35,912 bases of DNA from Flavobacteriaceae bacterium (GTDB lineage: Bacteria; Bacteroidota; Bacteroidia; Flavobacteriales; Flavobacteriaceae). Shown piece by piece: positions 264-34,680 of the stretch; the stretch's first letter is position 1, and each line of letters begins with the position of its first letter. The translations under genes were made by a program, and so were the position numbers. Location: the NCBI GenBank assembly GCA_947478365.1, contig CANJWG010000007.1, positions 1 to 35,912 on the forward strand. The letters run 5' to 3'. The notes below the pieces were generated by a model. That model was given only the letters and a program-made list of their open reading frames with translations, was not told the DNA's origin and did no database searches.

Positions 264-376
264 AATAGAGTATAGATATAGACTAAAAAAAATATCTTTA
301 CTCTGTTTTTATAACTAATCAATATAGTGACGAAAATGGCTGAGTCTATTTTCTATAATCTATTCTCTATACTCTT
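264..376. repeat. Inverted pair of short-word tracts (AATAGAGTATAGATATAGACT ... AGTCTATTTTCTATAATCTATTCTCTATACTCTT)
   Basis: Left arm 264-284 and right arm 343-376 share complementary words (ATAGACT/AGTCTAT, AGAGTATAGA/TCTATACTCT); right arm ends 7 nt before the ATG at 384. Confidence 0.6.
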
Positions 377-383
377 AAAAAAT

Positions 384-1235
384 ATGAAATTACTAGTTGA
401 TAGTGGATCTACGAAAGCCGATTGGATTGCCATTGATGATAACGGAAAAGTACTTTTTACTACACAAACACTGGGTTTAAATCCGGAAGTTTTAGATAAA
501 GAAGGAATTATCAAGCGTCTTGATGATAAATTTGATATTGAACACAATAAAGACAAAGCGTCACATCTTTACTTTTATGGTGCTGGTTGTGGAACGGATA
601 GAATGAAAGATTTTTTAACCAAAGTGTTTCAGGAATATTTTAACAAAGCTATCGTTTCGGTTTATGAAGATACTTATGCAGCTGTTTATGCAACTACCCC
701 TAAAGAAGAAGAAGCCATTGTTTGTATCCTTGGAACAGGTTCTAACTGTAGTTATTTTGATGGCAAAGTCTTGCATCAAAAAGTACAATCTTTAGGTTAT
801 ATAGCGATGGATGATGGATCAGGTAATCGTTTTGGGAGACATCTACTACGTGGGTATTCATTTAATAAAATGCCTATAGAATTAGCCAAAGAATTTGAAG
901 AAACATACAATCTCGACCCTGATTATATCAAGCATAATTTATACAAAGCACCGAATCCAAATGCCTACTTGGCAACATTTGCCAAGTTTTTGATTAAACA
1001 TAAAAACACCGATTTCTGTAAAAAATATATCTATGCTGAACTCGAAGATTTTGTAGAAAACTTTATCATGCAGTTTGAAAATCACAAAGAGGTACCGGTA
1101 CATTTTGTAGGTTCAATAGCATATTATTTGAAAGACGAATTGTCAGAAGTATTAAATAAATACGGCATCAAAATGGGTAGCGTACTCCGCAGACCGATTG
1201 ATGGTTTGATTGCATTCCACATTTTGAACAAATGA
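384..1235 (+). CDS. BadF/BadG/BcrA/BcrD-type ATPase, N-acetylglucosamine-kinase-like
   Basis: MKLLVDSGSTKADWIAID (phosphate-1 motif), CILGTGSNCSYFDG, DDGSGNRFGR. Start moved from 327 to 384 because the upstream extension translates the repeat tract. Confidence 0.82.
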   Translation: MKLLVDSGSTKADWIAIDDNGKVLFTTQTLGLNPEVLDKEGIIKRLDDKFDIEHNKDKASHLYFYGAGCGTDRMKDFLTKVFQEYFNKAIVSVYEDTYAAVYATTPKEEEAIVCILGTGSNCSYFDGKVLHQKVQSLGYIAMDDGSGNRFGRHLLRGYSFNKMPIELAKEFEETYNLDPDYIKHNLYKAPNPNAYLATFAKFLIKHKNTDFCKKYIYAELEDFVENFIMQFENHKEVPVHFVGSIAYYLKDELSEVLNKYGIKMGSVLRRPIDGLIAFHILNK

Positions 1236-1339
1236 TTCTCTTATTGCCATTCATCCTTTTGTGGGATTCGAAATGTACAAAAAAAGCCAGTTCATAAACA
1301 ATGACATTTTTTTATCTTGAATGAAATAGTATTATCTTT

Positions 1340-1371
1340 AGACCTGACAGTTTATAAAACTTGTCAGGTCT
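1340..1371. repeat. Perfect 10-bp inverted repeat (AGACCTGACA...TGTCAGGTCT), REP-like hairpin
   Basis: AGACCTGACA-GTTT-ATA-AAAC-T-TGTCAGGTCT: 10 bp stem plus 4 more bp after a 1-nt bulge; no trailing T-tract. Confidence 0.8.
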
Positions 1372-1386
1372 TAAATTATATGAGAT

Positions 1387-1758
1387 ATTGAAATAGCAAT
1401 AATTGCACACGATGGAAAAAAAGCCGACATGGTTCAGTTTATCAATAAAAATATAGCAATATTTCAAAAAGAAAACATAAAACTAATTGCAACTGGAACA
1501 ACAGGTAGCAAGGTAGAAGCCGTTGGTATTAAAGTTAAAAAAATGCTTTCCGGTCCACAAGGTGGAGATGCCCAAATTGCTGCCCGTGTGGCCGAAGGGA
1601 AAACCAAAATGGTATTATTCTTTAAAGACCCAAATTCAACTCATCCACATGAACCGGACATCAACATGCTTATCCGTATTTGTGATGTACACAATGTGCC
1701 TTTAGCTACCAATGAAGCTACAGCACAGTTATTATTGAATGCTATTGCAGTAGATTAA
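1387..1758 (+). CDS. mgsA: Methylglyoxal synthase, apparently initiating at ATT
   Basis: Frame reads ATT-EIAIIAHDGKKADMVQFINKN...LIATGTTGSKVE...VKKMLSGPQGGDAQIAARVAEGKTKMVLFFKDP. In-frame TGA at 1381-1383; the only in-frame ATG (1429) lies after the conserved HDxxK segment. Confidence 0.85.
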   Translation: MEIAIIAHDGKKADMVQFINKNIAIFQKENIKLIATGTTGSKVEAVGIKVKKMLSGPQGGDAQIAARVAEGKTKMVLFFKDPNSTHPHEPDINMLIRICDVHNVPLATNEATAQLLLNAIAVD

Positions 1759-1763
1759 TTATA

Positions 1764-2144
1764 TTATTTCACCGCTATCATCGAAATTTCAACGTTTACG
1801 CCCAAAGGCAAACTAGCTACTTGAACAGTTTCACGTGCAGGCGAAGTAGCTTCATCAAAAAAAGTTGAATATACTGAATTAATCCGCGCAAATTCACCCA
1901 TATTCATAATAAAGATGGTTGCTTTTACTACATTTTCAAAAGTCATGTCGGCAGCATCTAAAACAGCTTTTAAATTATTCATAACTTGTTTTGTTTCGGT
2001 TTCTATATCCTCAAGAATCAATTCCATTGTCTTTGGATTAAGTGCTATTTGTCCCGAAGTATATAGTGTGTTTTCAACCAAAATTGCTTGACTATACGGT
2101 CCAATAGGAGCTGGGGCTTTATCGGTTAAGATTATCTTTTTCAT
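1764..2144 (-). CDS. ridA: RidA family reactive intermediate/imine deaminase
   Basis: APAPIGPYSQAI, LYTSGQIALNP, VKATIFI, PARETVQVASLPLGVNVEISMIAV: RidA/YjgF family motifs. Confidence 0.93.
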   Translation of the reverse strand: MKKIILTDKAPAPIGPYSQAILVENTLYTSGQIALNPKTMELILEDIETETKQVMNNLKAVLDAADMTFENVVKATIFIMNMGEFARINSVYSTFFDEATSPARETVQVASLPLGVNVEISMIAVK

Positions 2145-2146
2145 CG

Positions 2147-2178
2147 TTTGTTATTTGTTGTCTGTTGTCTGTTTTGGT
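2147..2178. repeat. Short-word tract TTTGTTA-TTTG-TTGTCTG-TTGTCTG-TTTTGG
   Basis: TTGTCTG twice in tandem at 2158-2171, directly abutting the ridA start (2144, minus strand). Confidence 0.5.
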
Positions 2179-2209
2179 TTTAAATCATAACCGATAAAAA
2201 AACCAATAT

Positions 2210-4933
2210 CTATCTTAAAGTTCTATCTGCCTGATTTCGTTTATCCCATTTGATGTCGCTTAAAACGCCTGCTTTTATTCCGATAAAAAATCCCCAATAG
2301 GGATTATCTCCAAAAGGCACCCAATTAAAATCCATTCGCCAACTAAGTAAATCTCTTTCAAATCTTAGCTGTGTAAATGTTACACCCTCTTGTACAAAAT
2401 CATACCCAGTTGAAACTCCAATTTTCCATTTAGGTGTTAAATCGGTATTCATAGAAACCATCAAAGAGTTTCCTGTTATTTTTTTCTCCCGATTATTATT
2501 GGAATACGTCAATGAATAAGCGAGAGTCATATCCCAGGGCAATTCATATTTAAAAAACTCAGTTGGAGTTTCTTCTTCCTTGTCATCGTCTTTAAATTGG
2601 CTCTGTCTCCTGTCACTCAAATCGGTATTACTACCAAATAAATCGTCTTGGCGTCCACCATTTCTTTCTCCTTGCATATTTTTCTTTTCTTCCCCATTAA
2701 GATCTTTACTTGAGAATGCATAGTTTAAAGTCATATTGGTACTAGTCATTCTAAACAAACTTCCCCCATTGTCAATGTTCCAGGTATTAATTCGTCTTCC
2801 GGCATTGTTTATTGCATAAGGATCGAGTGTCATACCAAAATTGACATTCATTTTTTGTTTAAATAAAAGTGTCCCGCCACTAACACGCATTGGTGACCAT
2901 TTCAACGAGTCAGCTGTTATATCATAACTTGTTGAAAAATTTAAATTGTTCAACAACATTATTTTTTTAGGCTCTGTTTTGGTTGAATCTTTGTCCGTTA
3001 CTTTAGCTTCAAAGGTATTACTCAAATTGAAACCTAAATTGTTGGACATATTTTTTCCTGGTGCACCAAAAATTCCACCATCAAATCGCGTATACTCTTT
3101 TATCATGGTACCGCTTCCGTCAGGATCATAAGTATCATAGTATTTAGAAAAACTTGGGGTATAACTATAGGAAACATTAGGACGCATTACGTGTCGTATG
3201 GCTTGAATTTTTTTCTTTTCACCAAAATTAAAGGTTCCATATATAGTAGTTCCTAACCCAGCTGAAAACGAATAGGTTCTAAACGCATCATATCCTTGCA
3301 CTTCGGTATCAATAACTGCATTCTGAGTTGGGTCATATTTACGACGGATTGTTTTTAAATACCATACTTCATTATAATTCATTGAAGTTGTTGCACTAAA
3401 ATATTTAAAAACTTTAAAATTTGTACTCAAAGGAACACTATGTTGGAAACCAATTTTGGCATCCTTGAACATTTGAGGTTTAAAGAAAAGTGAATCGGTA
3501 GTTTGAATTCGGTTTTCGCCCCTTAAGTTATATTGCAAATTAATATTCTTAAAAAAACCTTTTTTAATTCCATCTCTAGAGGCAAAAGGAAACATTCTGT
3601 CCACACTCAATTGCAACGTCGGCAAAGTCATGCTGATTTGTTCTGTGTTTGTGTTTTGCGAATGTGAAGCAGCTACAGTTAAATTAACTTGTGGAATTGA
3701 GTTAAATGTTTTAGAATATGAAATCGTTGAACTTAATTGATTATTTAAACGAGAACCTACATTAATTTGATTTATTGATTGTCTGTAAAACTTGCTAGTT
3801 CCAAGGTTAACAGAAGCAGAAAAGCGTGAATTTGGATTAGACTTTCCATCTTTAGAATGTGACCACTGAATGTTATAATTATTACTTTTTTCATAATCGG
3901 GATAACCTCTTTCACTAGTAATTAGATTTTCAATTCTAATATTTATATTCCCCGAAAACTTATATTTTTTGGCATACGAAGATTCAAAGCGCATGGCATA
4001 ACTTCCGTTGGTAAAATAATCGCCCAATACGGCCAAGTCGTAATTATCGCTTAACGCAAAATAATAACCTCCATTTTGCAAAGAAAAACCTCTTGTATTG
4101 CTATCATTATAACTAGGAACAATTATTCCAGAACGACTTTTTTCTGACATCGGAAAGAAGGCAAATGGCAAAGCCAAAGGAGTTGGTACATCTGCAATAA
4201 CCATATTGGTAAAACCTACCACCACTTTTTTCCCGGGAACTAGTTTTACTTTATTAGTCTGAAAATAATATTCAGGATCATCTATGTCTTTGGCCGTCGT
4301 AAATCGGCTACTTTTCATAAAATAAACTGAATCGTTTTCTTTTTTGGTGATTTCGGCTTTTACTTTAAACTCTCCTTGGTCTGTTCTTGAATTCCAAACC
4401 AATGCTTTTTTTGTTTTAAAATTAAAACGAATAGAATCAGGTTCCACAATATTACTACCTTGTTTGAAAACTGGTCTTTGTGTATAAGCTCCGGTTGAAT
4501 CTTTTATTCTTCCGGCATAAACTTCACTCTTATTATAATCAATAACAATAATCCCAGATTTGAGTTCAATATCCTGATAATATACTTCTGCTTTATTGTA
4601 TAGTGTAATTAGCTTTTTATTTTGATCAAATTTTTCGTAGTCAACCGCCTTTCTTTTAATCTTACTTTCCAATAAAGGCTTTTTTTTAAGACTATCAGAT
4701 ACTTTAATTTCGGTAACTTCTAATTTAGGTTCTGTGTTAGTTTCAGTCTTAGTTTCCTGATTTTTAGGAGGAAAAGAATTGTTGCCTTTAGGCAACTCTT
4801 GTGAATATGTTTTTTGGTTTCCTTGTGTTAGGAAAATTGTTAAAAAAACGATATAAAATAAGTTTCTTTGCAAAGGTTTAGTGCTATTTTTGTAGAAATA
4901 TGGCTTGATTTTTGACGAGGCAAACTTAAACAA
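2210..4933 (-). CDS. lptD: LPS-assembly protein LptD-like outer-membrane protein
   Basis: Signal-like N-terminus (LFYIVFLTIFLTQGNQKTYSQ), OstA/LptA-like stretch (LITLYNKAEVYYQDIELKSGIIVIDYNKSEVYA), long beta-barrel-like C-terminal part; next to ridA and amidase. Confidence 0.85.
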   Translation of the reverse strand: MFKFASSKIKPYFYKNSTKPLQRNLFYIVFLTIFLTQGNQKTYSQELPKGNNSFPPKNQETKTETNTEPKLEVTEIKVSDSLKKKPLLESKIKRKAVDYEKFDQNKKLITLYNKAEVYYQDIELKSGIIVIDYNKSEVYAGRIKDSTGAYTQRPVFKQGSNIVEPDSIRFNFKTKKALVWNSRTDQGEFKVKAEITKKENDSVYFMKSSRFTTAKDIDDPEYYFQTNKVKLVPGKKVVVGFTNMVIADVPTPLALPFAFFPMSEKSRSGIIVPSYNDSNTRGFSLQNGGYYFALSDNYDLAVLGDYFTNGSYAMRFESSYAKKYKFSGNINIRIENLITSERGYPDYEKSNNYNIQWSHSKDGKSNPNSRFSASVNLGTSKFYRQSINQINVGSRLNNQLSSTISYSKTFNSIPQVNLTVAASHSQNTNTEQISMTLPTLQLSVDRMFPFASRDGIKKGFFKNINLQYNLRGENRIQTTDSLFFKPQMFKDAKIGFQHSVPLSTNFKVFKYFSATTSMNYNEVWYLKTIRRKYDPTQNAVIDTEVQGYDAFRTYSFSAGLGTTIYGTFNFGEKKKIQAIRHVMRPNVSYSYTPSFSKYYDTYDPDGSGTMIKEYTRFDGGIFGAPGKNMSNNLGFNLSNTFEAKVTDKDSTKTEPKKIMLLNNLNFSTSYDITADSLKWSPMRVSGGTLLFKQKMNVNFGMTLDPYAINNAGRRINTWNIDNGGSLFRMTSTNMTLNYAFSSKDLNGEEKKNMQGERNGGRQDDLFGSNTDLSDRRQSQFKDDDKEEETPTEFFKYELPWDMTLAYSLTYSNNNREKKITGNSLMVSMNTDLTPKWKIGVSTGYDFVQEGVTFTQLRFERDLLSWRMDFNWVPFGDNPYWGFFIGIKAGVLSDIKWDKRNQADRTLR

Positions 4934-4943
4934 TATTTTCGGT

Positions 4944-4951
4944 CAAAAATA
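4944..4951 (-). promoter_or_regulatory. Bacteroidota -7 like element TATTTTTG upstream of lptD
   Basis: CAAAAATA on the plus strand reads TATTTTTG (TAnnTTTG) on minus, 10 nt before the predicted lptD ATG; no clear -33 box. Confidence 0.3.
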
Positions 4952-5008
4952 AAGAAATATAAGTTTTATAACCTTTCGGTTTTAATTAAAATTAACTTTT
5001 ACATTCAT

Positions 5009-6196
5009 ATGAATACTCACAAATACAGCAAAGTTCTACTGATATTATCGTTCTTCTTCTTTATTACACAATCATTTGGTCAATCAAAATTTAAAGTTAC
5101 ACTCGATGCTGGTCATGGCGATCATGATTATGGTGCTGTTTATCATGGGCATATTGAAAAAAATATTGCTTTGGCAGTGGTGCTTAAAGTTGGTAAGTTA
5201 TTAGAGAAAAATTCAGGCATTGATGTGATTTATACCCGAAAAGTCGATCAGTTTATTGATTTGGTTGAGCGAGCAAACATCGCCAACAGAGCGGATGCCG
5301 ATATTTTTGTTTCTATACATTGTAATGCCAATGCAAACAATGCTGCAGATGGTTGTGAGACCTATGTAATGGGTATGTCTAAAAATGCTTCTAATCTTGA
5401 AGCAGCGAAAAGAGAGAACTCGGTTGTAACATTAGAAAAAGATTATAAACAAAAATATGAAGGATTTGACCCAAAATCTCCTGAATCTTTTGCAGGAATG
5501 ATTATGGCTCAAGAGTTATATTTAGATCAAAGTATTGCTTTGGCGGGAAAAGTGCAGGGTAAATTTATAGAAATCGGTAAAAAGAGCCGTGGTGTTAAGC
5601 AAGCACCTTATATGGTTTTACACAAAGCATACATGCCAAGAGTCTTAATAGAAATGGGTTTTATTTCTAATCAGACGGAAGGTTCAAAATTAGATTCAGA
5701 AGAAGGACAGGAAGAAATAGCACAATCTATCTCAGATGCTATTATAAGTTACAAAAAAGAATATTTTGGAGCCGGTGATAATGATAATGCGATCAAACCT
5801 TCACAACAGATAGTACCTATAAAAACACAAGACTCTATAACAAATAAAGAGCCAGTTAAAACTTCCGAAGTTAAAAAGCCATCTGTAAAAACACCAGAAA
5901 TTAAAAAACCTGAAACAAAACCAGAAGTTGTCTCTTCTGGGATTGCATCGTTCAAAGTACAGCTTTCGGCAAGTGGTAAAAAAATAGAGCTTCTTCCTAG
6001 TAATTTCAATGGTTTAAGTAATATTTCAATAGCTTCGGAAGGCAATTTATACAAATACATGTATGGAGAAACTACGAATTATGATGAAGCTAAGCGATTA
6101 TTATCAGATGCCAAATCTAAAGGATATTCATCTGCCTTTTTAATTGCTTTTAAAAATGGGAAGAAAGTATCAGTGCAAGATGCATTAAAGCAATAA
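5009..6196 (+). CDS. N-acetylmuramoyl-L-alanine amidase (Amidase_3) with C-terminal SPOR-like region
   Basis: KVTLDAGHGDHDYGAVYHGHIEKNIAL, VSIHCNANAN, VLIEMGFISNQTE: Amidase_3 Zn-site motifs; C-terminal FKVQLSASGKKIEL...YKYMYGETTNYDEAKRLLSDAKSKGYSSAFLIAFKNGKKV. Confidence 0.93.
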   Translation: MNTHKYSKVLLILSFFFFITQSFGQSKFKVTLDAGHGDHDYGAVYHGHIEKNIALAVVLKVGKLLEKNSGIDVIYTRKVDQFIDLVERANIANRADADIFVSIHCNANANNAADGCETYVMGMSKNASNLEAAKRENSVVTLEKDYKQKYEGFDPKSPESFAGMIMAQELYLDQSIALAGKVQGKFIEIGKKSRGVKQAPYMVLHKAYMPRVLIEMGFISNQTEGSKLDSEEGQEEIAQSISDAIISYKKEYFGAGDNDNAIKPSQQIVPIKTQDSITNKEPVKTSEVKKPSVKTPEIKKPETKPEVVSSGIASFKVQLSASGKKIELLPSNFNGLSNISIASEGNLYKYMYGETTNYDEAKRLLSDAKSKGYSSAFLIAFKNGKKVSVQDALKQ

Positions 6197-6222
6197 TAAT
6201 AAGGAGTTATAATTATTTATTT

Positions 6223-6230
6223 TAACTTTG
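6223..6230 (+). promoter_or_regulatory. -7 like element TAACTTTG upstream of the MCE-domain gene
   Basis: TAnnTTTG consensus in the amidase-MCE intergenic region. Confidence 0.35.
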
Positions 6231-6305
6231 CCTATCAAAATTAAAGGTCGAACTGTAGGACACGAGCAAAACAAATAGAGTGCAACTAAATAAAAAAGAT
6301 TTATA

Positions 6306-7265
6306 TTGAAAATAACTAAAGAAATAAAGACAGCAATTTTAGTAATTGCCTCTATTTTATTGTTTATATGGGGTTATAGCTTTTTAAAAGGAAAAGATTT
6401 ACTTACTAACTATAAAACATTCTATGTTCAATATGACAATGTTGAAGGCCTTGTCAATTCGGCACCTGTTACTATTAATGGACTTAATGTTGGAAAGGTT
6501 AGCAAAGTTGAATTTCTCAATGATAATTCTGGAAAAATAAGAGTTGAACTTCAAATAAAATCAGATTTTCCTTTTTCAAAAAAGAGTATCGCTTCTATTT
6601 ACGAACCCGGTTTGATAGGAGGTAAACAAATTATGATTACTCCTAATTTTGAAGATAAATCAGTTGCTGAGTCAGGAATCACTTTACAAGGAGATGTCAA
6701 ACCAGGTTTAACTTCTTTAGTTGCGGAACGGTTGACACCACTACAAGAAAAAGTGGAAAAGATGGTAGTTTCTGCCGATGTACTTTTGAAAAATGTTAAT
6801 TCAGTATTAGATTCCAAAACTAAAGCGAATCTAAAAAGCAGTATTGCTAATCTAGATGATACTTTAGCCGAATTTAAATTGGCTTCCAAATCAGTGAATG
6901 AAATGTTAGCTGAAAACAAAGGTAAAATCAGCTCAGCATTGACTAATGTTGATAAAGCTTCAGCTAATTTTGTAAAAATATCGGATTCGATTTCTAAAGC
7001 AAATCTTGGTAAAACGGTTAAAAGCTTAGAAAGAACATTAGCAAGTGTTGATAAAATTATGGCTGATGTGCAATCAGGAAAAGGTACTTTAGGCAAATTA
7101 GCAAAAGATGAAACGATGTACAATAACTTTGCAAAAACATCCAAAGAATTAGAATTGTTACTTCAGGATTTACGATTAAATCCAACACGTTATGTAAACG
7201 TATCACTGTTTGGAAAGAAAAATAAACCCTATAAATCACCTGTAAACGATACTATTAAAAAGTAA
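6306..7265 (+). CDS. MlaD/MCE-domain family protein (TTG start)
   Basis: Single N-terminal TM (TAILVIASILLFIWGYSFLKG) then MCE fold (YNVEGLVNSAPVTINGLNVGKVSKVEF...LIGGKQIMITP). Confidence 0.85.
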   Translation: MKITKEIKTAILVIASILLFIWGYSFLKGKDLLTNYKTFYVQYDNVEGLVNSAPVTINGLNVGKVSKVEFLNDNSGKIRVELQIKSDFPFSKKSIASIYEPGLIGGKQIMITPNFEDKSVAESGITLQGDVKPGLTSLVAERLTPLQEKVEKMVVSADVLLKNVNSVLDSKTKANLKSSIANLDDTLAEFKLASKSVNEMLAENKGKISSALTNVDKASANFVKISDSISKANLGKTVKSLERTLASVDKIMADVQSGKGTLGKLAKDETMYNNFAKTSKELELLLQDLRLNPTRYVNVSLFGKKNKPYKSPVNDTIKK

Positions 7266-7274
7266 CCCAAAGCC

Positions 7275-8579
7275 ATGATGTATATCGACAACATACTTTT
7301 TGCTATCATTCTTGTTATTGGAATTGGTTTTTTTGCTAAAAATATAAAAAAGCTAAAGCGTAATATCAAATTGGGTCATGATGTTAATCGTAAAGATAAT
7401 CCATCTGCACGTTGGAAAAACATGGCCATGATTGCTTTAGGACAATCTAAGATGGTAAAAAGACCTGTTGCTGGTTTTTTACACATTATAGTTTACGCTG
7501 GTTTTATTATTATCAACATTGAAGTTCTTGAAATCATTATTGATGGACTAATAGGCACACACAGAGTATTATCCTTTTTAGGTCGATTTTATGGCTTCCT
7601 GATTGGTTCGTTTGAAATACTGGCAGTTTTAGTTTTAGTAGCCGTTATTATTTTTTGGATTAGAAGAAATATAATACGGCTAAAACGTTTTGCAAGTTCT
7701 GATTTGAAAGGTGCACCAAAAAGAGATGCCGATATAATTTTGTATTTTGAAATAGTATTGATGTCGTTGTTTCTGATAATGAATGCTACTGACTTGCATT
7801 TTCAGGAAATGAAGTCAGGTAATATCATTTCACAGTACATTCATCCTTGGTTTTCTTCTTTAGATATTGCACAAATCGAAGCGGTCGAATTGGTTGCCTG
7901 GTGGTTTCATATTATTGGTATTTTAATATTCCTGAACTATCTATACTATTCAAAACATTTACACATACTTTTAGCTTTCCCAAATACTTATTTTGCCGAT
8001 TTGAATGCCAAAGGAAAATTCGATAATTTGGAAAGTGTTACCAAAGAAGTAAAACTTATTATGGATCCTAATGCCGATCCATTCGCTTCACAAGCTATAG
8101 ATGAAAATGCTGTTCCAAGTAAATTTGGAGCTTCAGACGTACAAGATTTGAATTGGGTTCAATTACTTAATGCCTACACTTGTACCGAATGTGGAAGATG
8201 TACTTCTTCTTGTCCGGCTAATCAAACCGGTAAAAAATTATCGCCCCGTAAAATCATGATGGATACGCGAGATAGGATGGAAGAGATCGGCAAAAACATA
8301 GACGCTAATAAAGGAGTTTTTGTACCAGATAATAAATCGTTATTGAATGATTATATTACAGCCGAAGAGCTTTGGGCATGTACATCTTGTAATGCATGTG
8401 TTGAAGAATGTCCGGTAAATATTAGTCCTTTGTCAATTATTATGGATATGAGACGCTATTTAGTTATGGAACAAAGTGCCGCACCACAATCTTTGAATGC
8501 CATGATGACCAATATTGAAAACAATGGTGCGCCATGGCAATACAACCAACAAGACCGATTAAATTGGAAAAATGAATAA
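7275..8579 (+). CDS. Membrane (Fe-S)-binding protein with two CxxCxxCxxxCP ferredoxin motifs
   Basis: N-terminal TM helices; CTECGRCTSSCPANQTGK and CTSCNACVEECPVNISPL. Confidence 0.9.
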   Translation: MMYIDNILFAIILVIGIGFFAKNIKKLKRNIKLGHDVNRKDNPSARWKNMAMIALGQSKMVKRPVAGFLHIIVYAGFIIINIEVLEIIIDGLIGTHRVLSFLGRFYGFLIGSFEILAVLVLVAVIIFWIRRNIIRLKRFASSDLKGAPKRDADIILYFEIVLMSLFLIMNATDLHFQEMKSGNIISQYIHPWFSSLDIAQIEAVELVAWWFHIIGILIFLNYLYYSKHLHILLAFPNTYFADLNAKGKFDNLESVTKEVKLIMDPNADPFASQAIDENAVPSKFGASDVQDLNWVQLLNAYTCTECGRCTSSCPANQTGKKLSPRKIMMDTRDRMEEIGKNIDANKGVFVPDNKSLLNDYITAEELWACTSCNACVEECPVNISPLSIIMDMRRYLVMEQSAAPQSLNAMMTNIENNGAPWQYNQQDRLNWKNE

Positions 8580-9105: not shown

Positions 9106-9133
9106 AATCTATTATTGGATTTTTGGATAATAA

Positions 9134-9165
9134 AATCTAACAATCTAACAATCTAACAATCTAAA
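9134..9165. repeat. Tandem repeat (AATCTAAC)x3 + AATCTAAA, period 8
   Basis: Units 9134-9141, 9142-9149, 9150-9157, 9158-9165; ends 4 nt before the ATG at 9170. Confidence 0.92.
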
Positions 9166-9169
9166 AAAA

Positions 9170-9961
9170 ATGTCAGAAGTATTAAATGTGCCAACAATGG
9201 CAGAAATGATTGCTCAAGGCAAGCAACCCGAAGTATTGTTTTGGGTTGGTTGTGCAGGTAGTTTTGATGATAGAGCAAAAAAAATAACCAAGGCTTTTGT
9301 ACGTATTCTAAATCGAGCGAATGTCGAGTTTGCTGTTTTAGGTACAGAAGAAAGTTGTAGCGGCGATCCTGCAAAACGAGCGGGTAATGAGTTTTTGTTC
9401 CAAATGCAAGCCATGATGAACATCGAAGTTCTGAATGCCTACGAAGCTAAAAAAATCGTAACTGCTTGCCCACATTGTTTTAATACACTGAAAAATGAAT
9501 ACCCAGAATTGGGTGGAATATATGAAGTAGTTCACCATACTGAATTTTTAAAACAACTTTTAGATTCAGGAAGGTTGACTATTGAGGGTGGACAATTCAA
9601 AGGTAAAAGAATTACCTTCCACGATCCTTGTTATCTTGGAAGAGCTAACAACGTTTACGAAGCTCCAAGAGAATTGATCGAAAAACTGGATGTTGAATTA
9701 GTAGAAATGAAACGTTCAAAAGCTAATGGTTTATGTTGTGGTGCCGGTGGTGCCCAAATGTTCAAAGAACCAGAACCAGGTAGCAAAGACATCAATGTGG
9801 AAAGAACCGAAGAAGCTTTAGAAATCAAACCAGATATAATTGCTGCGGGTTGCCCGTTTTGCAATACCATGATGACTGACGGTGTAAAAGCTAAAGAACA
9901 AGAAGCCAATGTTAAAGTAATGGACATCGCTGAATTAATTGCCAATGCGCAGGATTTATAA
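9170..9961 (+). CDS. (Fe-S)-binding protein with two CCG domains (HdrB/LutA-like)
   Basis: VGCAGSFDDRAKK, ACPHCFNTLKNEYPELGG, FHDPCYLGRANN, GLCCGAGGAQMF, AAGCPFCNTMM. Confidence 0.92.
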   Translation: MSEVLNVPTMAEMIAQGKQPEVLFWVGCAGSFDDRAKKITKAFVRILNRANVEFAVLGTEESCSGDPAKRAGNEFLFQMQAMMNIEVLNAYEAKKIVTACPHCFNTLKNEYPELGGIYEVVHHTEFLKQLLDSGRLTIEGGQFKGKRITFHDPCYLGRANNVYEAPRELIEKLDVELVEMKRSKANGLCCGAGGAQMFKEPEPGSKDINVERTEEALEIKPDIIAAGCPFCNTMMTDGVKAKEQEANVKVMDIAELIANAQDL

Positions 9962-24459: not shown

Positions 24460-24460
24460 G

Positions 24461-24495
24461 CAGTTTCAGTTTTCAGTTTGTATATCCTGAAAAAG
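24461..24495. repeat. Short-word tract CAGTTT-CAGTTTT-CAGTTTG followed by inverted word CTGAAAAAG
   Basis: Tandem 6/7-mers at 24461-24480 and TTTTCAG ... CTGAAAA inverted pair, right after the helicase stop codon. Confidence 0.5.
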
Positions 24496-24505
24496 AAATT
24501 ATCAT

Positions 24506-24545
24506 AACTCCGTTTTTACTCAATCATTGATGTAAAAACGGAGTT
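24506..24545. terminator. Intrinsic terminator after the helicase gene
   Basis: AACTCCGTTTTTAC / GTAAAAACGGAGTT perfect 14-bp stem, 12-nt loop, followed by TTTTT. Confidence 0.9.
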
Positions 24546-24646
24546 TTTTAGGCGGATACTTTATTTTGTTAATTTTGTTCTAATTCTGATGCCAAACTTT
24601 ATAATATCTTAAAAGAGTTTCATACTTTTAACCATCAAAAATTGAT

Positions 24647-25414: not shown

Positions 25415-25416
25415 GG

Positions 25417-25477
25417 TTATGTTATCTGTTTTCAGTTCTCTGTTCTTTATGATTACAACCGATAACTGACAACTACT
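25417..25477. repeat. Inverted pair of short-word tracts (GTTATCTGTTTTCAGTTCTCTGTTC ... AACCGATAACTGACAACTAC)
   Basis: GTTATC/GATAAC and TCAGTT/AACTGA inverted words, starting just after a CDS stop and reaching the end of the convergent trmH. Confidence 0.5.
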
Positions 25478-26870: not shown

Positions 26871-26873
26871 TAG

Positions 26874-26960
26874 CGAATAGACAAAAAGAACAGAAAAATT
26901 CAATCCTATCTTCGTCTTTTATCTATAATCTATTTTCTATTCTCTTTACTCTATTTTCTA
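26874..26960. repeat. Inverted short-word tract; second copy of the family at 264-376
   Basis: GAATAGAC ... GTCTTTTATCTATAATCTATTTTCTATTCTCTTTACTCTATTTTCTA; shares TCTATAATCTATT with 352-364; starts just after the cobB stop. Confidence 0.6.
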
Positions 26961-26972
26961 AATAGGATTACC

Positions 26973-27028: not shown

Positions 27029-28372
27029 ATGTCACTAACTCCACTTAACGCCGTTTCACCCATTGACGGAAGATACCGAAGTAAAACCAAATCGCTTTCC
27101 AATTATTTTTCGGAAGAAGCCTTAATCAAATATCGTGTTCTGGTAGAAGTTGAATATTTCATCGCTTTATGCGAAGCTGATTTGCCACAACTAAAAGGTG
27201 TAAGTCCAACCGTTTTTGGCAGCATGCGAAATCTCTATAAAAACTTTACCACTGAAGATGCGCAATGGATAAAAGAATCTGAAAAAATTACTAACCACGA
27301 TGTAAAAGCGGTAGAGTATTTTATCAAAGATAAGTTTGAATCCTTAGGATTATCTAGCTACAAAGAGTTTATTCATTTTGGTTTAACTTCACAGGATATT
27401 AATAACACAGCTATTCCGCTATCAACAAAAGAAGCCTTTCAAGAAGTCTATTTAAAAGCATTAATCGGAATAGTAGCCAAATTAAAAGAATTGGCAATAG
27501 AGTGGAATGACATTCCGATGTTAGCCAGAACTCATGGTCAGCCTGCTTCACCAACTCGTTTAGGAAAGGAAATTTTGGTTTTTGTAGAACGTTTGGAAGA
27601 GCAAATGCGTTTATTGTTTAATATACCGTTTGCTGCTAAATTTGGAGGTGCTACCGGAAATTTTAACGCCCATCATGTAGCGTATCCCGACATAGATTGG
27701 AAAAAATTTGGTACCACTTTCGTGGAAGATACTCTAGGTTTACATCATTCATTTCCAACCACACAAATAGAACACTACGATCACTTTGCGGCCTTTTTTG
27801 ATGCACTAAAAAGAATAAATAATATCATCATCGATTTAGATAGGGATATCTGGACCTATGTTTCGATGGAGTATTTTAAACAAAAAATCAAAGCAGGAGA
27901 AATTGGATCTTCAGCAATGCCACACAAGGTAAACCCAATAGACTTTGAAAACTCGGAAGGAAATTTAGGTATTGCTAATGCCATATTTGAACACTTATCG
28001 GCTAAACTACCAATATCAAGATTGCAGCGAGATTTAACTGACAGTACTGTATTAAGAAACATTGGTGTTCCAATTGGACATACTTTGATTGCTTTTGATG
28101 CCACTTTAAAAGGCCTGAATAAACTATTGCTAAATGAATCAAAAATTGCTGACGATTTAGAAAAAAACTGGTCAGTAGTTTCAGAAGCGATTCAAACTAT
28201 TTTAAGAAGAGAGGGCTATCCCAATCCATACGAAGCATTGAAAGTCTTAACTAGAACAAATTCAGTCATTGATAAAAAAGCAATTCATGATTTTATAATA
28301 AATCTTGATATTTCAGATGAAATTAAAGCTGATTTGCTAAAAATTACACCAACTAATTATTTAGGAGTTTAA
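27029..28372 (+). CDS. purB: Adenylosuccinate lyase
   Basis: LTPLNAVSPIDGRY, HDVKAVEYFIKDK, HFGLTSQDINNTA, ARTHGQPASPTRLGKE, GSSAMPHKVNPIDFENSEGN. Confidence 0.96.
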   Translation: MSLTPLNAVSPIDGRYRSKTKSLSNYFSEEALIKYRVLVEVEYFIALCEADLPQLKGVSPTVFGSMRNLYKNFTTEDAQWIKESEKITNHDVKAVEYFIKDKFESLGLSSYKEFIHFGLTSQDINNTAIPLSTKEAFQEVYLKALIGIVAKLKELAIEWNDIPMLARTHGQPASPTRLGKEILVFVERLEEQMRLLFNIPFAAKFGGATGNFNAHHVAYPDIDWKKFGTTFVEDTLGLHHSFPTTQIEHYDHFAAFFDALKRINNIIIDLDRDIWTYVSMEYFKQKIKAGEIGSSAMPHKVNPIDFENSEGNLGIANAIFEHLSAKLPISRLQRDLTDSTVLRNIGVPIGHTLIAFDATLKGLNKLLLNESKIADDLEKNWSVVSEAIQTILRREGYPNPYEALKVLTRTNSVIDKKAIHDFIINLDISDEIKADLLKITPTNYLGV

Positions 28373-28392
28373 ATAGTTTAAATTCAAAAATG

Positions 28393-29865
28393 TTATCTCG
28401 AATAATTAGGCGCTTCTTTAGTAATGGTTACGTTATGTGGATGACTTTCAGTTATACCACTTGAAGTTATTCTTACAAAGCGTCCTGTATCTTGTAATGT
28501 TGGAATATCTTTGGCGCCACAATAGCCCATTCCGGCTCGTAGTCCGCCAATAAATTGCTGCATGCTTTCGTTTAATTCGCCTTTATAAGGTACACGACCA
28601 ACAATTCCTTCAGGAACTAATTTTTTAATATCATCTTCAACATCTTGGAAATATCGGTCTTTTGAACCATCTTCCATTGCTTCAATAGAACCCATTCCAC
28701 GATAAGACTTGAATTTTCTTCCTTCAAAAATAATAGTTTCTCCTGGGCTTTCTTTTGTTCCGGCTAAAAGTGATCCTAACATAACGCTATCTGCACCAGC
28801 AGCTATAGCTTTGGGGATATCTCCTGTATATCTAATTCCACCATCAGCAATAACAGGAATTCCAGTTCCTTTCAATATTGCCGAAACCTCTAAAACTGCA
28901 GAAAATTGAGGAAAACCAACTCCAGCTATTACTCGAGTAGTACAAATAGAACCTGGACCAATACCAACTTTAACTCCATCAGCACCATTGTCAACTAAAT
29001 ATTTAGCTGCTTCTGGAGTAGCAATATTCCCTACAATTACATCTATTTTAGGAAATATTGATTTTATGTTTTTCAATACATTAACAACTCCTGATGTATG
29101 TCCATGAGCCGTATCAATTATAATAGCATCTACTCCTGCATTGACTAATGCAGTTGCTCTATCAATTGAATCAGCTGTGACTCCAATAGCGGCTGCAACT
29201 CGTAATCGACCATAAGAATCTTTATTAGCAATAGGTTTTTGAGTTAGTTTGGTAATATCTCTAAAGGTAATTAAACCAACTAATTTATAATCTGTATTTA
29301 CGACAGGAAGTTTTTCAATCTTATTTCCTTGTAGAACAACTTCCGCTTGTTCTAGTGATGTTCCTTCAGCTACAGTAATAAGGTTTTGACTAGTCATTAC
29401 TTCTACAATAGGTCGATAATTGTTTTTTTCAAAACGCAAATCTCTGTTGGTTACAATTCCTTTTAACGTTTTATTGTCATCAACTATCGGAATTCCACCA
29501 ATGCCAAATTCTTTCATAGCCGCTTTAGCATCAAAAACTGTTGCTGTAAGTGGCAAGGTTACTGGGTCGATAATCATACCACTTTCAGCACGTTTCACTT
29601 TGCGTACTTTGGAAGCTTGTTGCTCTATTGTCATGTTTTTATGAAGTACCCCAATGCCACCTTCCTGTGCCATAGCAATCGCCATAGCACTTTCAGTAAC
29701 GGTATCCATAGCCGCAGAAACAATAGGAACATTTAAAGTAATATTTCTCGAAAACTTCGATTGGATACTGACTTCGCGTGGTAATACTTCAGAATAATTT
29801 GGGATTAGCAGTACATCGTCATAGGTTAAACCTTCTCCAACGATTTTAGTTGTGTGTGCTTTCAT
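28393..29865 (-). CDS. guaB: Inosine-5'-monophosphate dehydrogenase with CBS pair
   Basis: [35 protein letters not shown] (catalytic Cys loop), [41 protein letters not shown]. Confidence 0.97.
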
Positions 29866-29883
29866 TGCAATTTGTAGTTTATG

Positions 29884-29898
29884 CTGAACTGAGTTCAG
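29884..29898 (-). repeat. Small palindrome CTGAAC-TCA-GTTCAG in the guaB leader
   Basis: 6-bp perfect inverted repeat between the guaB start (29865) and a -7 like element at 29919-29926. Confidence 0.5.
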
Positions 29899-29918
29899 TG
29901 TTGAAGTTAAATTGCATA

Positions 29919-29926
29919 CAAATATA
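29919..29926 (-). promoter_or_regulatory. -7 like element TATATTTG for guaB
   Basis: CAAATATA on plus reads TATATTTG on minus, 54 nt before the guaB start. Confidence 0.45.
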
Positions 29927-30001
29927 GTAATCTTTACCTAAATAATCCAGTTATTTTAATCATAAATAACTAATTTAGTAGTTATAACTCAATTCATCAT
30001 A

Positions 30002-32497
30002 ATGGCAGGAAATCAAGAGCTTATTAAAGGACTTTTAAATGATGAAGTTATTTCCTCTAGAAAAAAGTATGGTTCTAATTCTTTAAAACATCAACAGAAA
30101 AATCATTTATTGATTTCAATATTGGAAATGGTAAAAGAACCTATGTTTCTTCTTTTGGTTGCAGCGGCAAGTATCTATTATGTTATTGGAGATTTTGGAG
30201 ATGGTGTTTTTATGACAATTGCTATTATGTTGGTTGCTACCATTTCATTATTTCAGGAGGCTAGGAGTAAGAACGCAATAGATACTTTAAAAAAGTTATC
30301 CCAGCCTAAAAGCAAAGTCATTAGAAATAGGGAAGTAATCGAAATTCTTAGCGAAGAAATTGTATTAGGAGATATTATTCAGTTAGAAGAAGGTACTTTT
30401 GTACCAGCTGATGCTGTAATTTTAAAGTCGAATGATTTTTCGGTTAATGAAGCTATTTTGACGGGTGAATCTTTATCGGTTTTTAAAAGTGAATCGTCAA
30501 AAATTAAACAAGTATTTCAGGGAACTATTGTTGCTACAGGGTTGGCAATTTGTGAAGTTATTGCAATTGGTAATCAAACCAGTCTGGGTAAAATCGGTAA
30601 AAGCCTTGAATCCATTGAAGAAGAAAAAACTCCTTTGCAACGACAGATTAACAATTTTGTTAGGAAAATGTCAATTATTGGATTGATTATTTTTGGAATA
30701 GTTTGGGTATTAAACTATTATCATTCAAAAACTATTTTAGATAGTTTATTAAAGGCACTAACTATAGCAATGAGCGTCATTCCTGAAGAAATCCCAGTGG
30801 CTTTTACAACGTTTATGGCACTAGGTGCCTGGCGTTTAATGAAAATGGGTATTATAACCAAACAAACCAAAACGGTCGAAACACTTGGAAGCGCTACTGT
30901 TATTTGTACTGATAAAACCGGTACGATTACGGAAAATAAAATGAGTTTGGTACAACTATATCTTGTAAACTCAAATGAAATTATTGATACCAAAGAAAAA
31001 CTGAATAAGGAAGCTGAAGAATTATTGAGTTATGCCATGTGGTCTAGCGAACCCATTCCGTTTGACGCTATGGAAATTGCAGTTCACGAAGCTTACTCTA
31101 ATTTGGAATCGGTTGATGAACGGACTAATTTTAAATTAATTAAAGAATATCCATTAGGAGGTAAACCTCCCATGATGACTCATATTTTTGAAGACTCAAA
31201 CGGTAAAAGAATTATTGCAGCTAAAGGCGCCCCCGAAGCAATAATTGAAGTTAGTAAATTATCTGATAAAGAAAAAAATCAAATTTTAATCGCTATAGAA
31301 ATGATGGCTAAAGAAGGATATCGGGTTTTAGGAGTTGGAATAGCAAATTTTTCAGGAAATAGATTTCCTAAATCACAACAGGAATTTAAGTTTTGCTTTA
31401 AAGGATTGGTAGCTTTTTATGACCCACCTAAAGCCAATATTCAACAAGTTTTTGAAACTTTCTATACGGCAGGTATTCAAGTAAAAATTGTGACAGGTGA
31501 TAATGCAATTACAACTAGAACAATTGCTCAGCAAATAGGTTTTAAAGATGCTGATAGAATACTTAATGGCGATGAACTCATGGCAATGGATGATGATACT
31601 TTAAAATCAAAAGTTATGAAAACGGCTATTTTTACAAGAATGTTTCCTGAAGCTAAACTTAAAATTATTCGAGCATTAAAAGCCAACAATCAAATTGTTG
31701 CTATGACAGGAGATGGCGTAAATGATGGTCCGGCCCTAAAATCAGCTCACATTGGAATTGCCATGGGAAAAAACGGAACCGAAATTGCAAAACAAGCCGC
31801 CAATATTATTTTAATTGACGATGATTTTAGTAAAATGATTGATGCAATTGCAATGGGTAGAAAGATTTACATTAATCTTAAAAAGGCCATTCAATATATT
31901 ATTTCGATTCATATACCTATTATTTTAATTGTCTTTATTCCTCTAGCTTTGGGTTGGATGTACCCTAATATTTTTACTCCTGTACATATTATCTTTTTGG
32001 AAATAATTATGGGGCCAACTTGTTCCTTGATTTATGAAAACGAACCGATGGAACATAATTTAATGCTACAAAAACCTAGACCTTTAACAACTACTTTTTT
32101 TAATTTAAAAGAAGTAATAATCAGTATTGTTCAGGGATTGATCATTACTTTAGGATTACTTTTTGTTTATTATCATTGTGTTAATGCCGGTTTTTCTGAA
32201 AAGTATACTAGAACAGAAATATTTTTGACTTTAATAGCATCAAACATATTTCTAACTTTAGAGAATCGGTCTTTTTATTATTCTATTTTAACAACCATAA
32301 AATATAAAAATAATTTGGTTTTGTTGATTATTGGAATTACAATAAGTGTTACTTCTCTTATATTATTTATACCGGTTTTTTCAAAATTCTTCCTTTTTGA
32401 AAAAGTAGCCATTACCCAAATTGGATATTGTATTTTGGTTGGATTTGTATCAGTAATGTGGATTGAAGTTTATAAACTGATTAAGAGGAAGATGTAG
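30002..32497 (+). CDS. Cation-translocating P-type ATPase (P2-like)
   Basis: LTGES, PEEIP, ICTDKTGTITEN (phosphorylation site), AKGAPE, MTGDGVNDGPAL. Confidence 0.93.
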   Translation: MAGNQELIKGLLNDEVISSRKKYGSNSLKHQQKNHLLISILEMVKEPMFLLLVAAASIYYVIGDFGDGVFMTIAIMLVATISLFQEARSKNAIDTLKKLSQPKSKVIRNREVIEILSEEIVLGDIIQLEEGTFVPADAVILKSNDFSVNEAILTGESLSVFKSESSKIKQVFQGTIVATGLAICEVIAIGNQTSLGKIGKSLESIEEEKTPLQRQINNFVRKMSIIGLIIFGIVWVLNYYHSKTILDSLLKALTIAMSVIPEEIPVAFTTFMALGAWRLMKMGIITKQTKTVETLGSATVICTDKTGTITENKMSLVQLYLVNSNEIIDTKEKLNKEAEELLSYAMWSSEPIPFDAMEIAVHEAYSNLESVDERTNFKLIKEYPLGGKPPMMTHIFEDSNGKRIIAAKGAPEAIIEVSKLSDKEKNQILIAIEMMAKEGYRVLGVGIANFSGNRFPKSQQEFKFCFKGLVAFYDPPKANIQQVFETFYTAGIQVKIVTGDNAITTRTIAQQIGFKDADRILNGDELMAMDDDTLKSKVMKTAIFTRMFPEAKLKIIRALKANNQIVAMTGDGVNDGPALKSAHIGIAMGKNGTEIAKQAANIILIDDDFSKMIDAIAMGRKIYINLKKAIQYIISIHIPIILIVFIPLALGWMYPNIFTPVHIIFLEIIMGPTCSLIYENEPMEHNLMLQKPRPLTTTFFNLKEVIISIVQGLIITLGLLFVYYHCVNAGFSEKYTRTEIFLTLIASNIFLTLENRSFYYSILTTIKYKNNLVLLIIGITISVTSLILFIPVFSKFFLFEKVAITQIGYCILVGFVSVMWIEVYKLIKRKM

Positions 32498-32501
32498 TAT
32501 T

Positions 32502-32580
32502 TAGTCTCGTTCTCAGTCTCATTTTTTAGTAATATTATTAATGCCAAATAAGTATATATACTGCGACTGTGACTGTAAAC
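32502..32580. repeat. Inverted pair of short-word tracts (TAGTCTCGTTCTCAGTCTCA ... CTGCGACTGTGACTGTAAAC)
   Basis: Left arm reverse complement TGAGACTGAGAACGAGACTA resembles the right arm CTGCGACTGTGACTG; fills the interval between two convergent CDSs. Confidence 0.5.
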
Positions 32581-32582
32581 TT

Positions 32583-33446
32583 TTAATGGAATGACGTAAA
32601 AATTTTTGAGGCTTCATTATATGCACTTTCAAAACTCATTGGACTAGTATTCGTATTTGCTTTTTGTTGTGTAAAATAGGACAGGAGCTTCTCGGTTGGC
32701 ATGTTACCAGTTAAATCATCTTTAGCCATTGGGCAACCACCAAAACCTTGAATAGCCCCATCAAAACGAACACAGCCTGCTTTATATGCAGCATCTATTT
32801 TTTCATGCCATAAATCAGGCGTAGTATGCAAATGGGCACCAAATTCTATGTGAGGATATTTTGGAATTAAATTCGAAAATAAATAACTTATCACATCTGG
32901 CGAAGAACTACCAATTGTATCTGAAAGCGATAGAATTTTAACTCCCATTTTTGCTAGCTTCTCTGTCCAATCGCCAACTATTTCTATATTCCACGGATCA
33001 CCATAAGGATTCCCAAATCCCATTGAAATATAAGTTACAACTTCTTTGTTGGAAGCATCAGCAATGTCTAAAATTTCTTGAAGTGTTACCAAACTCTCAG
33101 CAATTGTTTTGTGTGTATTACGCATTTGAAAATTCTCCGAAATCGAAAACGGGAAACCAAGATATTGGATTTCTTTATGCGTTGAAGCAATTTGGGCTCC
33201 TTGTGTATTAGCAATAATAGCTAACAATTTACTTTGTGTTTGCGATAAATCCAATTGAGCTAAAACTTCTGCCGTATCTTGCATTTGCGGAATCGCTTTA
33301 GGGGAAACAAAACTTCCAAAATCAATTGTGTCAAATCCAACCCGAAGGAGCGATTGAATGTAATCGACTTTCTTTTGTGTAGGGATGAATTCTTTTATGC
33401 CTTGCATGGCATCACGAGGACATTCTATGATTTTAATTTTTTTCAA
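32583..33446 (-). CDS. Hydroxymethylglutaryl-CoA lyase-like (HMGL/DRE-TIM family)
   Basis: IIECPRDAMQGIKEFIPTQKKVDYI, FGSFVSPKAIPQM, LSLSDTIG, HLHTTPDLW, GAIQGFGGCPMAKDDLTGNMPTEKL. Confidence 0.87.
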   Translation of the reverse strand: MKKIKIIECPRDAMQGIKEFIPTQKKVDYIQSLLRVGFDTIDFGSFVSPKAIPQMQDTAEVLAQLDLSQTQSKLLAIIANTQGAQIASTHKEIQYLGFPFSISENFQMRNTHKTIAESLVTLQEILDIADASNKEVVTYISMGFGNPYGDPWNIEIVGDWTEKLAKMGVKILSLSDTIGSSSPDVISYLFSNLIPKYPHIEFGAHLHTTPDLWHEKIDAAYKAGCVRFDGAIQGFGGCPMAKDDLTGNMPTEKLLSYFTQQKANTNTSPMSFESAYNEASKIFTSFH

Positions 33447-33454
33447 GAGATACG

Positions 33455-33486
33455 GAGTTGCAAAGTGGCTAAGTTACAAAGTTTTT
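33455..33486. repeat. Short-word tract GTTGCAAAGTGGCTAAGTTACAAAGTTTTTT overlapping the pyrD 3' end
   Basis: GTTGCAAAGT / GTTACAAAGT repeated words; the pyrD stop codon (33474-33476) and last codons lie inside. Confidence 0.5.
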
Positions 33487-34496
33487 TCAAGGATTTTTTT
33501 ATTGATTTTTTTTACCAATTTCGGACCTTCATAAATAAATCCAGTATATAACTGAACCAAACTTGCACCAGCTTCTAATTTCTCTAAAGCGTCATCAGCA
33601 GAATGAATTCCTCCAACACCAATAATTGGAAATGCGTTATTGCTTTTTTCAGCAAGAAAACGAATGACTTCAGTAGAACGTTTGGCAAGAGGTTTACCCG
33701 ATAGGCCACCGATTTCTGTTTTGTTTTCCGATTTCAAACCTTCTCTTGAAATTGTGGTGTTAGTAGCAATTACGCCAGCAATTTTGGTTTCGTTTACAAT
33801 ATCGATAATGTCTAATAATTGCTCATTGGTTAAATCGGGAGCTATTTTTAGAAGGATTGGTTTTTTAGTTTTATGTTCCGAGTTTCGGGTTTCGAGTTTG
33901 CTTAAAAGTTCTGTTAAAGGTTTTTTTTCTTGAAGCTCCCGTAGATTTGGCGTGTTTGGTGAACTCACATTCACAACAAAATAATCAACATAATCAAAAA
34001 GTGATTCAAAGCAATACAAATAATCAGAAGTAGCTTCTTCGTTTGGAGTTATTTTGTTTTTACCTATGTTTCCACCTATTAAAACGCCTTTGTTTTTCTT
34101 TAATCTCATGACTGCTGACTCAACGCCATCATTATTAAATCCCATTCGGTTAATAATAGCGCTATCTGATTTTAATCGGAATAATCTTTTTTTTGGATTG
34201 CCATCCTGAGGTTTTGGTGTTAAGGTTCCGATTTCAATAAAGCCAAACCCAAAATTTGAAAGTTCTTGATAACATTTGGCATCTTTATCAAATCCGGCTG
34301 CCAAACCTATAGGATTTTTAAATTTTAAACCAAAAACCTCGCGTTGCAATCTTTGATCTTTTACTTCGTAAATCGATTTTAGAATACTTGAAACAAAAGG
34401 AATTTTAGAAATAAATTGAATAAAACTAAAAGAGAAATAATGTACTTCTTCTGGGTCAAACCAAAAAAGAATAGGACGAATGAGTAGTTTGTACAT
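33474..34496 (-). CDS. pyrD: Dihydroorotate dehydrogenase (quinone, class 2)
   Basis: [103 protein letters not shown]. Confidence 0.96.
33875..33902. repeat. Period-7 tract (GTTCCGA GTTTCGG GTTTCGA GTTTGCT) inside the pyrD CDS
   Basis: Four consecutive 7-nt units; in coding direction AGCAAAC TCGAAAC CCGAAAC TCGGAAC encoding (SK)LETRNSE. Confidence 0.8.
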
Positions 34497-34500
34497 GATT

Positions 34501-34515
34501 TGTTGTGTTGTGTTG
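34501..34515. repeat. (TGTTG)x3 in the pyrD 5' leader
   Basis: TGTTGTGTTGTGTTG; mRNA sense CAACACAACACAACA immediately upstream of the pyrD ATG. Confidence 0.75.
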
Positions 34516-34523
34516 CAAATGTA
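34516..34523 (-). promoter_or_regulatory. -7 like element TACATTTG for pyrD
   Basis: CAAATGTA on plus reads TACATTTG on minus, 20 nt before the pyrD start. Confidence 0.45.
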
Positions 34524-34651
34524 ATCTATAATTTGAAAATGCTTTTAAAAATAAAACTAAGAATTTACAATTAGTAACTCAAATGTTTTAAAGTTTGTCA
34601 CTCTATAATATTTTGATATATTTTAAACTAAAGGTGATATTTTTATTTCTA

Positions 34652-34680
34652 AATTTCCGAATTTTCAAATTTTCAAATTA
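34652..34680. repeat. Short-word tract AATTTCCG-AATTTTCA-AATTTTCA-AATTAC
   Basis: Period-8 units just upstream of nadC. Confidence 0.6.

Follow-up and report, generated by a model that had tools for sequence, protein, structure and literature searches.

We analysed a contig of 35,912 nucleotides (the window; CANJWG010000007.1 of assembly GCA_947478365.1) from a Flavobacterium-type metagenome-assembled genome (MAG; 1.9 Mb, 85% complete, 151 contigs), in which many gene borders carry imperfect tandem runs of a short word. We tentatively read these tracts, from sequence, as a dispersed intergenic family of core arrays that may serve as strand-symmetric DNA recognition sites and may be exchanged as modules; this is the foremost of the readings weighed here, and short of a probable one. 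The ideal element would consist of two facing arrays in which a fixed core of 4–6 letters, with 1–4 free letters, recurs every 7 or 8 bp, as in the words CWRAG-NNN, TCTAT-NN, AACYGA-N and AATTRA-N. Intergenic enrichment, arm pairing, a fixed polarity and genome-specific vocabularies were computed directly, as were core conservation with saturated spacers (at one border), co-switching of the two arms and replacement of words at orthologous borders. The bulk of the results was drawn from relatives of the window's species rather than from near sisters.

Tracts were sought at periods of 5–10, with low-complexity runs rejected; single borders were tested against 400 dinucleotide shuffles, and a score of at least 12 was required at the genome scale. 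About 1.0 Mb of the window's own genome contained 56 tracts in 97.5 kb of intergenic DNA, compared with 3 after shuffling (0.574 per kb intergenic versus 0.021 per kb coding), and ~1.2 Mb of the complete relative G042 contained 69 compared with 0 (0.454 versus 0.0092 per kb). In a third sample of 47 loci, mostly from Flavobacterium records, 56 tracts were found and 1 remained after shuffling. Tracts occurred in ~8–9% of intergenic regions (IGRs) and were 27–65-fold rarer per kb in coding DNA, and their numbers were lower in other Flavobacteriaceae. The preliminary description of this DNA had proposed a single family, scattered between genes and alike in architecture, and had recorded an impression of similar tracts elsewhere in Flavobacterium; both held, the tracts being genus-wide. 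It had also named a tract density and an inverted pairing equal to those of shuffled sequence as grounds for giving up the idea, and both were far above the shuffled controls.

Period 7 was found in 40 of the 56 own-genome tracts and 35 of the 69 G042 tracts, and period 8 in 11 and 23, respectively. The units are composed of a core and free letters, and the own-genome sample yielded 31 distinct period-7 consensus words. The earlier suggestion that each locus has a different word was not sustained, since pairs of period-7 tracts with the same consensus numbered 32 in the own genome (3.4 expected) and 227 in G042 (15.6 expected), and TCTAT-NN occurs at two window borders and on several other contigs of the own genome. 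Word sharing between the two genomes was at the chance level (11 versus 8.7 expected). Each genome uses a small, reused vocabulary, and the dialects differ between species: that of the own genome includes TCTAT-NN, AACYGA-N, AATTRA-N, AATTACG and AATCTAA-N, and that of G042 includes AAATCTA, CTRAG-NNN, CARAG-NNN, GTTTCAA/G and AACTCAT. A run of four CTRAG-NNN octamer units was present in 24 of the 61 Flavobacterium genomes, with as many as 142 matches, and the reversed pattern was mostly at zero; a TAACTGA-type pattern had few matches across the family. The word (AATCTAA)n reads the same backwards, so that its genome counts have no valid control. In G183, which belongs to another Flavobacteriaceae genus, the reversed control pattern AGTCAANAGTCAANAGTCAA was itself matched 73 times and represents another genome-specific heptamer dialect.

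Inverted pairing of the tracts, claimed at the outset for several borders, was about tenfold above chance. Of 117 tract-bearing IGRs, 36 also held a reverse-complement partner with a score of at least 12, compared with 3.3 for shuffled and 4.0 for swapped flanks. In the decided pairs, G lay on the 5′ arm and C on the 3′ arm in 44 of 53 cases (44:9), and unpaired tracts obeyed the same side-of-gap rule (112:17). The purine-core arm came first in 11 of 11 octamer pairs of G042 and, among the matches listed, in 19 of 19 pairs of three further genomes. Viewed from the flanking gene, the G strand pointed outward near starts (41:5, 45:7 and 29:5) and near stops (15:9 in the own genome, not significant; 32:6 and 25:2). 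In gaps of this type, terminator-like hairpins had the opposite polarity (5′ arm C>G, 214:69), and intrinsic terminators were ruled out on this ground. A partner is lacking for many arms, and single arms probably derive from pairs through the loss of one side. A G strand that runs outward from the genes on both sides would also be expected at fused telomeres, and DRT10 produces tandem-repeat cDNA (PMC12632851). We also considered whether a DRT10-like bacterial reverse transcriptase adds templated repeats in the manner of telomerase, with head-to-head joining of the ends afterwards. However, no RVT_1 match was found in six tract-rich genomes (G042, one contig; G053, G054, G057, G008 and G049), where divergent reverse transcriptases could be missed, and we regard this origin as highly improbable.

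The pairing of arms also invites an explanation at the RNA level, in which the arms of a transcript pair as ladders of 5-bp helices with 2×2 or 3×3 internal loops and so either shield the ends of mRNAs or insulate adjacent genes from each other. In support of such hairpins, tract-bearing IGRs folded better than other IGRs (−1.62 versus −0.01 in divergent gaps of the own genome; −4.13 versus −2.71 across all classes in G042), and RNAalifold returned 20 pairs, 8 of them with double changes, including A-U to U-A swaps in three helices. However, tests that are sensitive to the direction of transcription were negative. The tracts had been placed at gene ends, and although they are strongly intergenic and lie near starts and stops, there was no consistent preference among convergent, divergent and co-directional gaps. 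The arm polarity was present in convergent gaps too, and polarity and position were unchanged between divergent genes. In addition, A-C mismatches on the mRNA strand equalled or exceeded G-U wobbles (G-T to A-C 32:46 genome-wide and 4:12 at the R/Y letters of the core), giving no support for RNA wobble selection in either set, and the missing partner of many arms also speaks against RNA hairpins. Because orientation class, convergent-gap polarity and wobble asymmetry all gave negative results, a DNA-level element is favoured and ranked above both RNA hairpins, which we consider an unlikely explanation, and functionless dispersed hairpins, discussed below.

Borders between orthologous genes were compared among species, as the preliminary description had suggested, and words were found to be replaced in sister species rather than merely altered by gradual substitution. 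Upstream of the window's gene for a cysteine-rich-domain protein (CCG, LutA-like; 9170–9961), sister species whose flanking genes are ~90% alike fall into two groups, one with a GGTTA/AACCGATT hairpin and the other with a TTTCAGATT/GAAACTTTGAAC tract, apart from one hybrid. One record compared here, L109 (CALPPA020000016.1), is titled as a Klebsiella pneumoniae MAG and is clearly Flavobacterium DNA, as its CCG-domain protein has 88% identity and falls inside Flavobacterium in the tree. At the window's SIR2/purB border, the ATAGA/TCTAT core is kept in G021, G048 and F. aquatile at 71–74% DNA likeness, and other species have different words.

The best-sampled border lies between a carbamoyltransferase-like and an acetylglutamate-kinase-like gene, as we presume them to be on account of their sequence motifs, and was compared among 31 species of the G042 clade. 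An octamer hairpin was present in 30 of the 31 (16 CARAG/CTYTG and 14 CTRAG/CTYAG), and both arms had the same core class in all 30. On the gene tree, the class requires at least 10 changes, 7 of them forced by well-supported branches, and its distribution fitted no better than shuffled labels. Within class CARAG, with cores placed by best match, diversity was 0.008–0.016 at fixed core letters and 0.59–0.60 in spacers, compared with 0.032, 0.010 and 0.239 at codon positions 1–3 of the neighbouring gene; core letters are as conserved here as first and second codon positions, and spacers are near saturation. The module type CT2 was 94–97% alike in four lineages whose genes are 90–92% alike, whereas sister species of its carriers have the other class at 59–65% identity. 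No footprint of import by recombination with flanks was seen in the upstream gene over its final 60 nt (upstream side only). The full-length CT2 module is single-copy in each genome, which contains 41–78 relatives of it, and replacement was precise, without extra insertions.

Such swapping would also suit selfish or neutral hairpin repeats that lack a host function and are spread by some enzyme, by recombination or by template switching, as would the genome-specific vocabularies, the many relatives of one module per genome and a class distribution that is random on the phylogeny. Nevertheless, core letters at an old border are conserved like first and second codon positions, replacement is precise, and no Y1 transposase (PF01797) of the REP type was matched in the octamer-rich genomes G004, G053 and G054 or in the own genome (G000). 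We rate repeats of this kind as unlikely, somewhat below RNA hairpins.

Polymerase slippage producing ordinary heptamer microsatellites, to which bacterial heptamer repeats are ascribed in literature as quoted by PMC4679880 and PMC4692102, would agree with the dominance of period 7, with (AAATCTA)n in G042 and with an exact 7-nt unit difference between two sister loci. Against it stand a vocabulary common to many loci, the pairing and polarity of arms, the conserved cores and the free letters. We compared units within and between arrays for CTRAG-NNN, CARAG-NNN, AACYGA-N, AATTRA-N, AAATC-NN, AATC-NNNN and TCTAT-NN (the last counted on neither side). The likeness of CTRAG-NNN spacer triplets was 0.442 within and 0.500 between arrays (499 of 500 shuffles reached or exceeded the observed value), and CARAG-NNN, AACYGA-N and AATTRA-N showed no excess of unit likeness within arrays over other arrays; AAATC-NN and AATC-NNNN were exceptions, with units more alike within an array. 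For most of the core-plus-spacer families compared, two units of one array resemble each other no more than units of different arrays do. This argues against local slippage, upholds the earlier view that these are not ordinary microsatellites and rules out slippage as the only cause of core-plus-spacer arrays. Slippage is already disfavoured for the octamers, and as a general account it is improbable.

According to the favoured DNA-level reading, the cores would be kept by selection acting on DNA strand-symmetrically, most likely as repeated recognition sites, in convergent layout, for a putative DNA- or ssDNA-binding factor; cruciform or hairpin extrusion may be part of the mechanism. Whole modules would be exchanged between genomes or loci, so that the word changes and the layout stays, and gene borders would simply be places where modules can live. 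Several points weigh against this. The binding factor is hypothetical. At the W position of the core, the two arms vary together as base pairs (A-T to T-A), and spacers of paired octamer arms were slightly more alike than those of swapped arms (0.722 versus 0.653, p=0.0035); both features are better accounted for by pairing or copying than by recognition through protein alone. The AAATCTA arrays of G042 are near-perfect and slippage-like, and the sister MAG loci L087 and L091 differ by one exact 7-nt unit. Moreover, core and spacer conservation were contrasted at one border only, and gene calls followed a simple heuristic open reading frame (ORF) rule. Fold-back copying of the arms was considered separately and rejected, as the spacers of paired arms are just slightly more alike than those of swapped arms.

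Within the window, seven of the ten loci described earlier as tracts stood at P≤0.005 (345–375, 2147–2173, 9134–9167, 25420–25446, 26915–26960, 32560–32576 and 34645–34679), two were weak at P~0.02 (24464–24479 and 33456–33483), and the TGTTG run at 34501–34515 was missed by the detector and listed by Tandem Repeats Finder at the minimum score. Facing, pairable arms were found at five borders: 261–285/343–374, 9112–9129/9134–9164, 25420–25446/25457–25476, 26871–26897/26915–26960 and, imperfectly, 32503–32520/32560–32580. The IGR fold z was below −2 at four borders (249–382, 9106–9169, 24460–24646 and 25415–25472), but the signal at 24460–24646 is that of an ordinary terminator, and the minimum-energy fold of 249–382 leaves its two arms unpaired with each other. 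An Rfam scan of the window gave no match above the gathering score.

The 5′ arm GAAAATAGAGTATAGATATAGACTA (261–285; core ATAGA plus 2 free letters) faces the period-7 3′ arm AGTCTATTTTCTATAATCTATTCTCTATACTC (343–375; core TCTAT-NN, P=0.0025), which stops 7 nt short of the likely start codon (ATG, 383). A listed ORF (327–1235) begins at a GTG ahead of this arm; since ATG 383 is the likelier start, the tract is intergenic. Next, ATTATTGGATTTTTGGAT (9112–9129; IGR fold z −3.97) faces 3.9 copies of AATCTAAC (9134–9164; period 8), ending 5 nt before the ATG at 9170. The third pair comprises TGTTATCTGTTTTCAGTTCTCTGTTCT (25420–25446; period 7) and AACCGATAACTGACAACTAC (25457–25476), whose word AACYGA-N recurs on other contigs of the own genome, and the fourth comprises the partly decayed TAGCGAATAGACAAAAAGAACAGAAAA (26871–26897) and a period-7 arm with core TCTAT-NN (26915–26960), the core common to the orthologous SIR2/purB border in the three species named above. 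Between convergent genes, AGTCTCGTTCTCAGTCTC (32503–32520) and the period-6 arm ACTGCGACTGTGACTGTAAAC (32560–32580; P=0.005) have the reverse of the usual polarity. Single tracts include a period-7 TGTTGTC tract (2147–2173) just upstream of the minus-strand gene 1764–2144, A/C-rich on that gene's coding strand and without a clear partner; a short, weak period-7 TTTCAGT tract after a helicase stop codon (24464–24479; P=0.02); a weak period-8 run of AGTTGCAAAGTGGCTAAGTTACAAAG (33456–33483); and a period-8 (ATTTTCAA)n tract upstream of a quinolinate phosphoribosyltransferase gene (34645–34679; P=0.0025).

Other repeats were noted in passing. G042 contains a further intergenic inverted family with ~10–11-nt spacing, GCCACGAATTACACGAATT...AATTCGTGGC and CACAGATTAAC...AATCTGTGGC (L252:5352-7837 and L254:18870), and two of its tracts recur at matching spacing in L204 and L227, ~460 kb from each other, a pattern suggestive of segmental duplication. 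At the spoU-sir2 border of L069, a long AGAAAGAAGA microsatellite lies next to an (ACTAATC)n heptamer tract in one gap.

Among known systems, the tandem heptanucleotides of Calothrix, which we take to be those known as STRR, and the cyanobacterial trnL-intron P6b repeats, which pair inside a hairpin, are likened to the Flavobacterium tracts by several degenerate heptamers per genome and by hairpin pairing, respectively, a likeness of description and not of sequence. The Calothrix work, as cited in PMC4692102, describes several degenerate heptamers per genome. REP and BIME elements (repetitive extragenic palindromes and bacterial interspersed mosaic elements; criteria in PMC12306157) are likewise short, intergenic, hairpin-capable and present in many copies, but the Flavobacterium tracts have internal periodicity, no single consensus and no tie to a Y1 transposase; REP/BIME with RAYT was rejected, since carriers tested had no PF01797 and each genome has several unrelated words, not one palindrome. 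Intrinsic terminators share inverted repeats after genes and differ in arm polarity, whereas the tracts require no T-run and are frequent upstream of starts. A G-quadruplex element was also rejected, as the recurrent words have single or paired Gs, not runs of three or more.

Heptamers have been published for Xanthomonas, Nostoc, Calothrix and Beggiatoaceae as well as for a small number of Bacteroidetes (PMC4692102, PMC4679880), and the earlier statement that no related feature is established overlooks them. Among these, the TAACTGA repeats (MacGregor 2015, PMC4679880), found in Beggiatoaceae, in Cyanobacteria and in some few Bacteroidetes, share the AACTGA-N word and an orientation toward start codons (147 sets toward starts and 12 toward stops), but consist of a single perfect word with essentially no inverted pairs, related heptamers being seldom repeated. 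The GGGAATC / GGGGAYT heptamers of Xanthomonas and Nostoc (Rehm 2015, PMC4692102) share period 7, intergenic location, degenerate units and convergent inverted pairs, of which there are 70 cases in Xanthomonas campestris pv. campestris (Xcc). They also share the polarity, the G strand being the non-coding strand ahead of a gene and the coding strand behind it, and in sister species they often occupy the same gene borders, with varying length and sequence (PMC4692102). They differ in having one G-rich, quadruplex-capable word, whereas Flavobacterium has many words without G-runs, periods of 7 and 8, a core/spacer grammar and class switching.

Reports of bacterial intergenic heptamers have come piecemeal from unrelated phyla, with slippage or quadruplexes given as their cause; here they appear as a pervasive, rule-bound class. 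Slippage, terminators, quadruplexes and known transposases do not account for its rules, namely a core combined with free letters, arms that face each other, an outward G strand and one class per arm pair. The 30-species border makes it testable what preserves the cores and what exchanges the modules. It is conceivable, if doubtful, that the tracts form a previously undescribed, strand-symmetric Flavobacterium border-element system, in which facing short-core arrays would be read by a putative trans-acting factor and word classes swapped as whole modules between genomes, with core, arm matching and polarity retained; a common polarity law would then place these tracts and the heptamers of Xanthomonas, Nostoc and Beggiatoaceae in a single general class. 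Set against that heptamer-repeat family, which is the nearest known kind, the tracts have 7-nt intergenic units and a G strand that points outward, and lack one dominant word.

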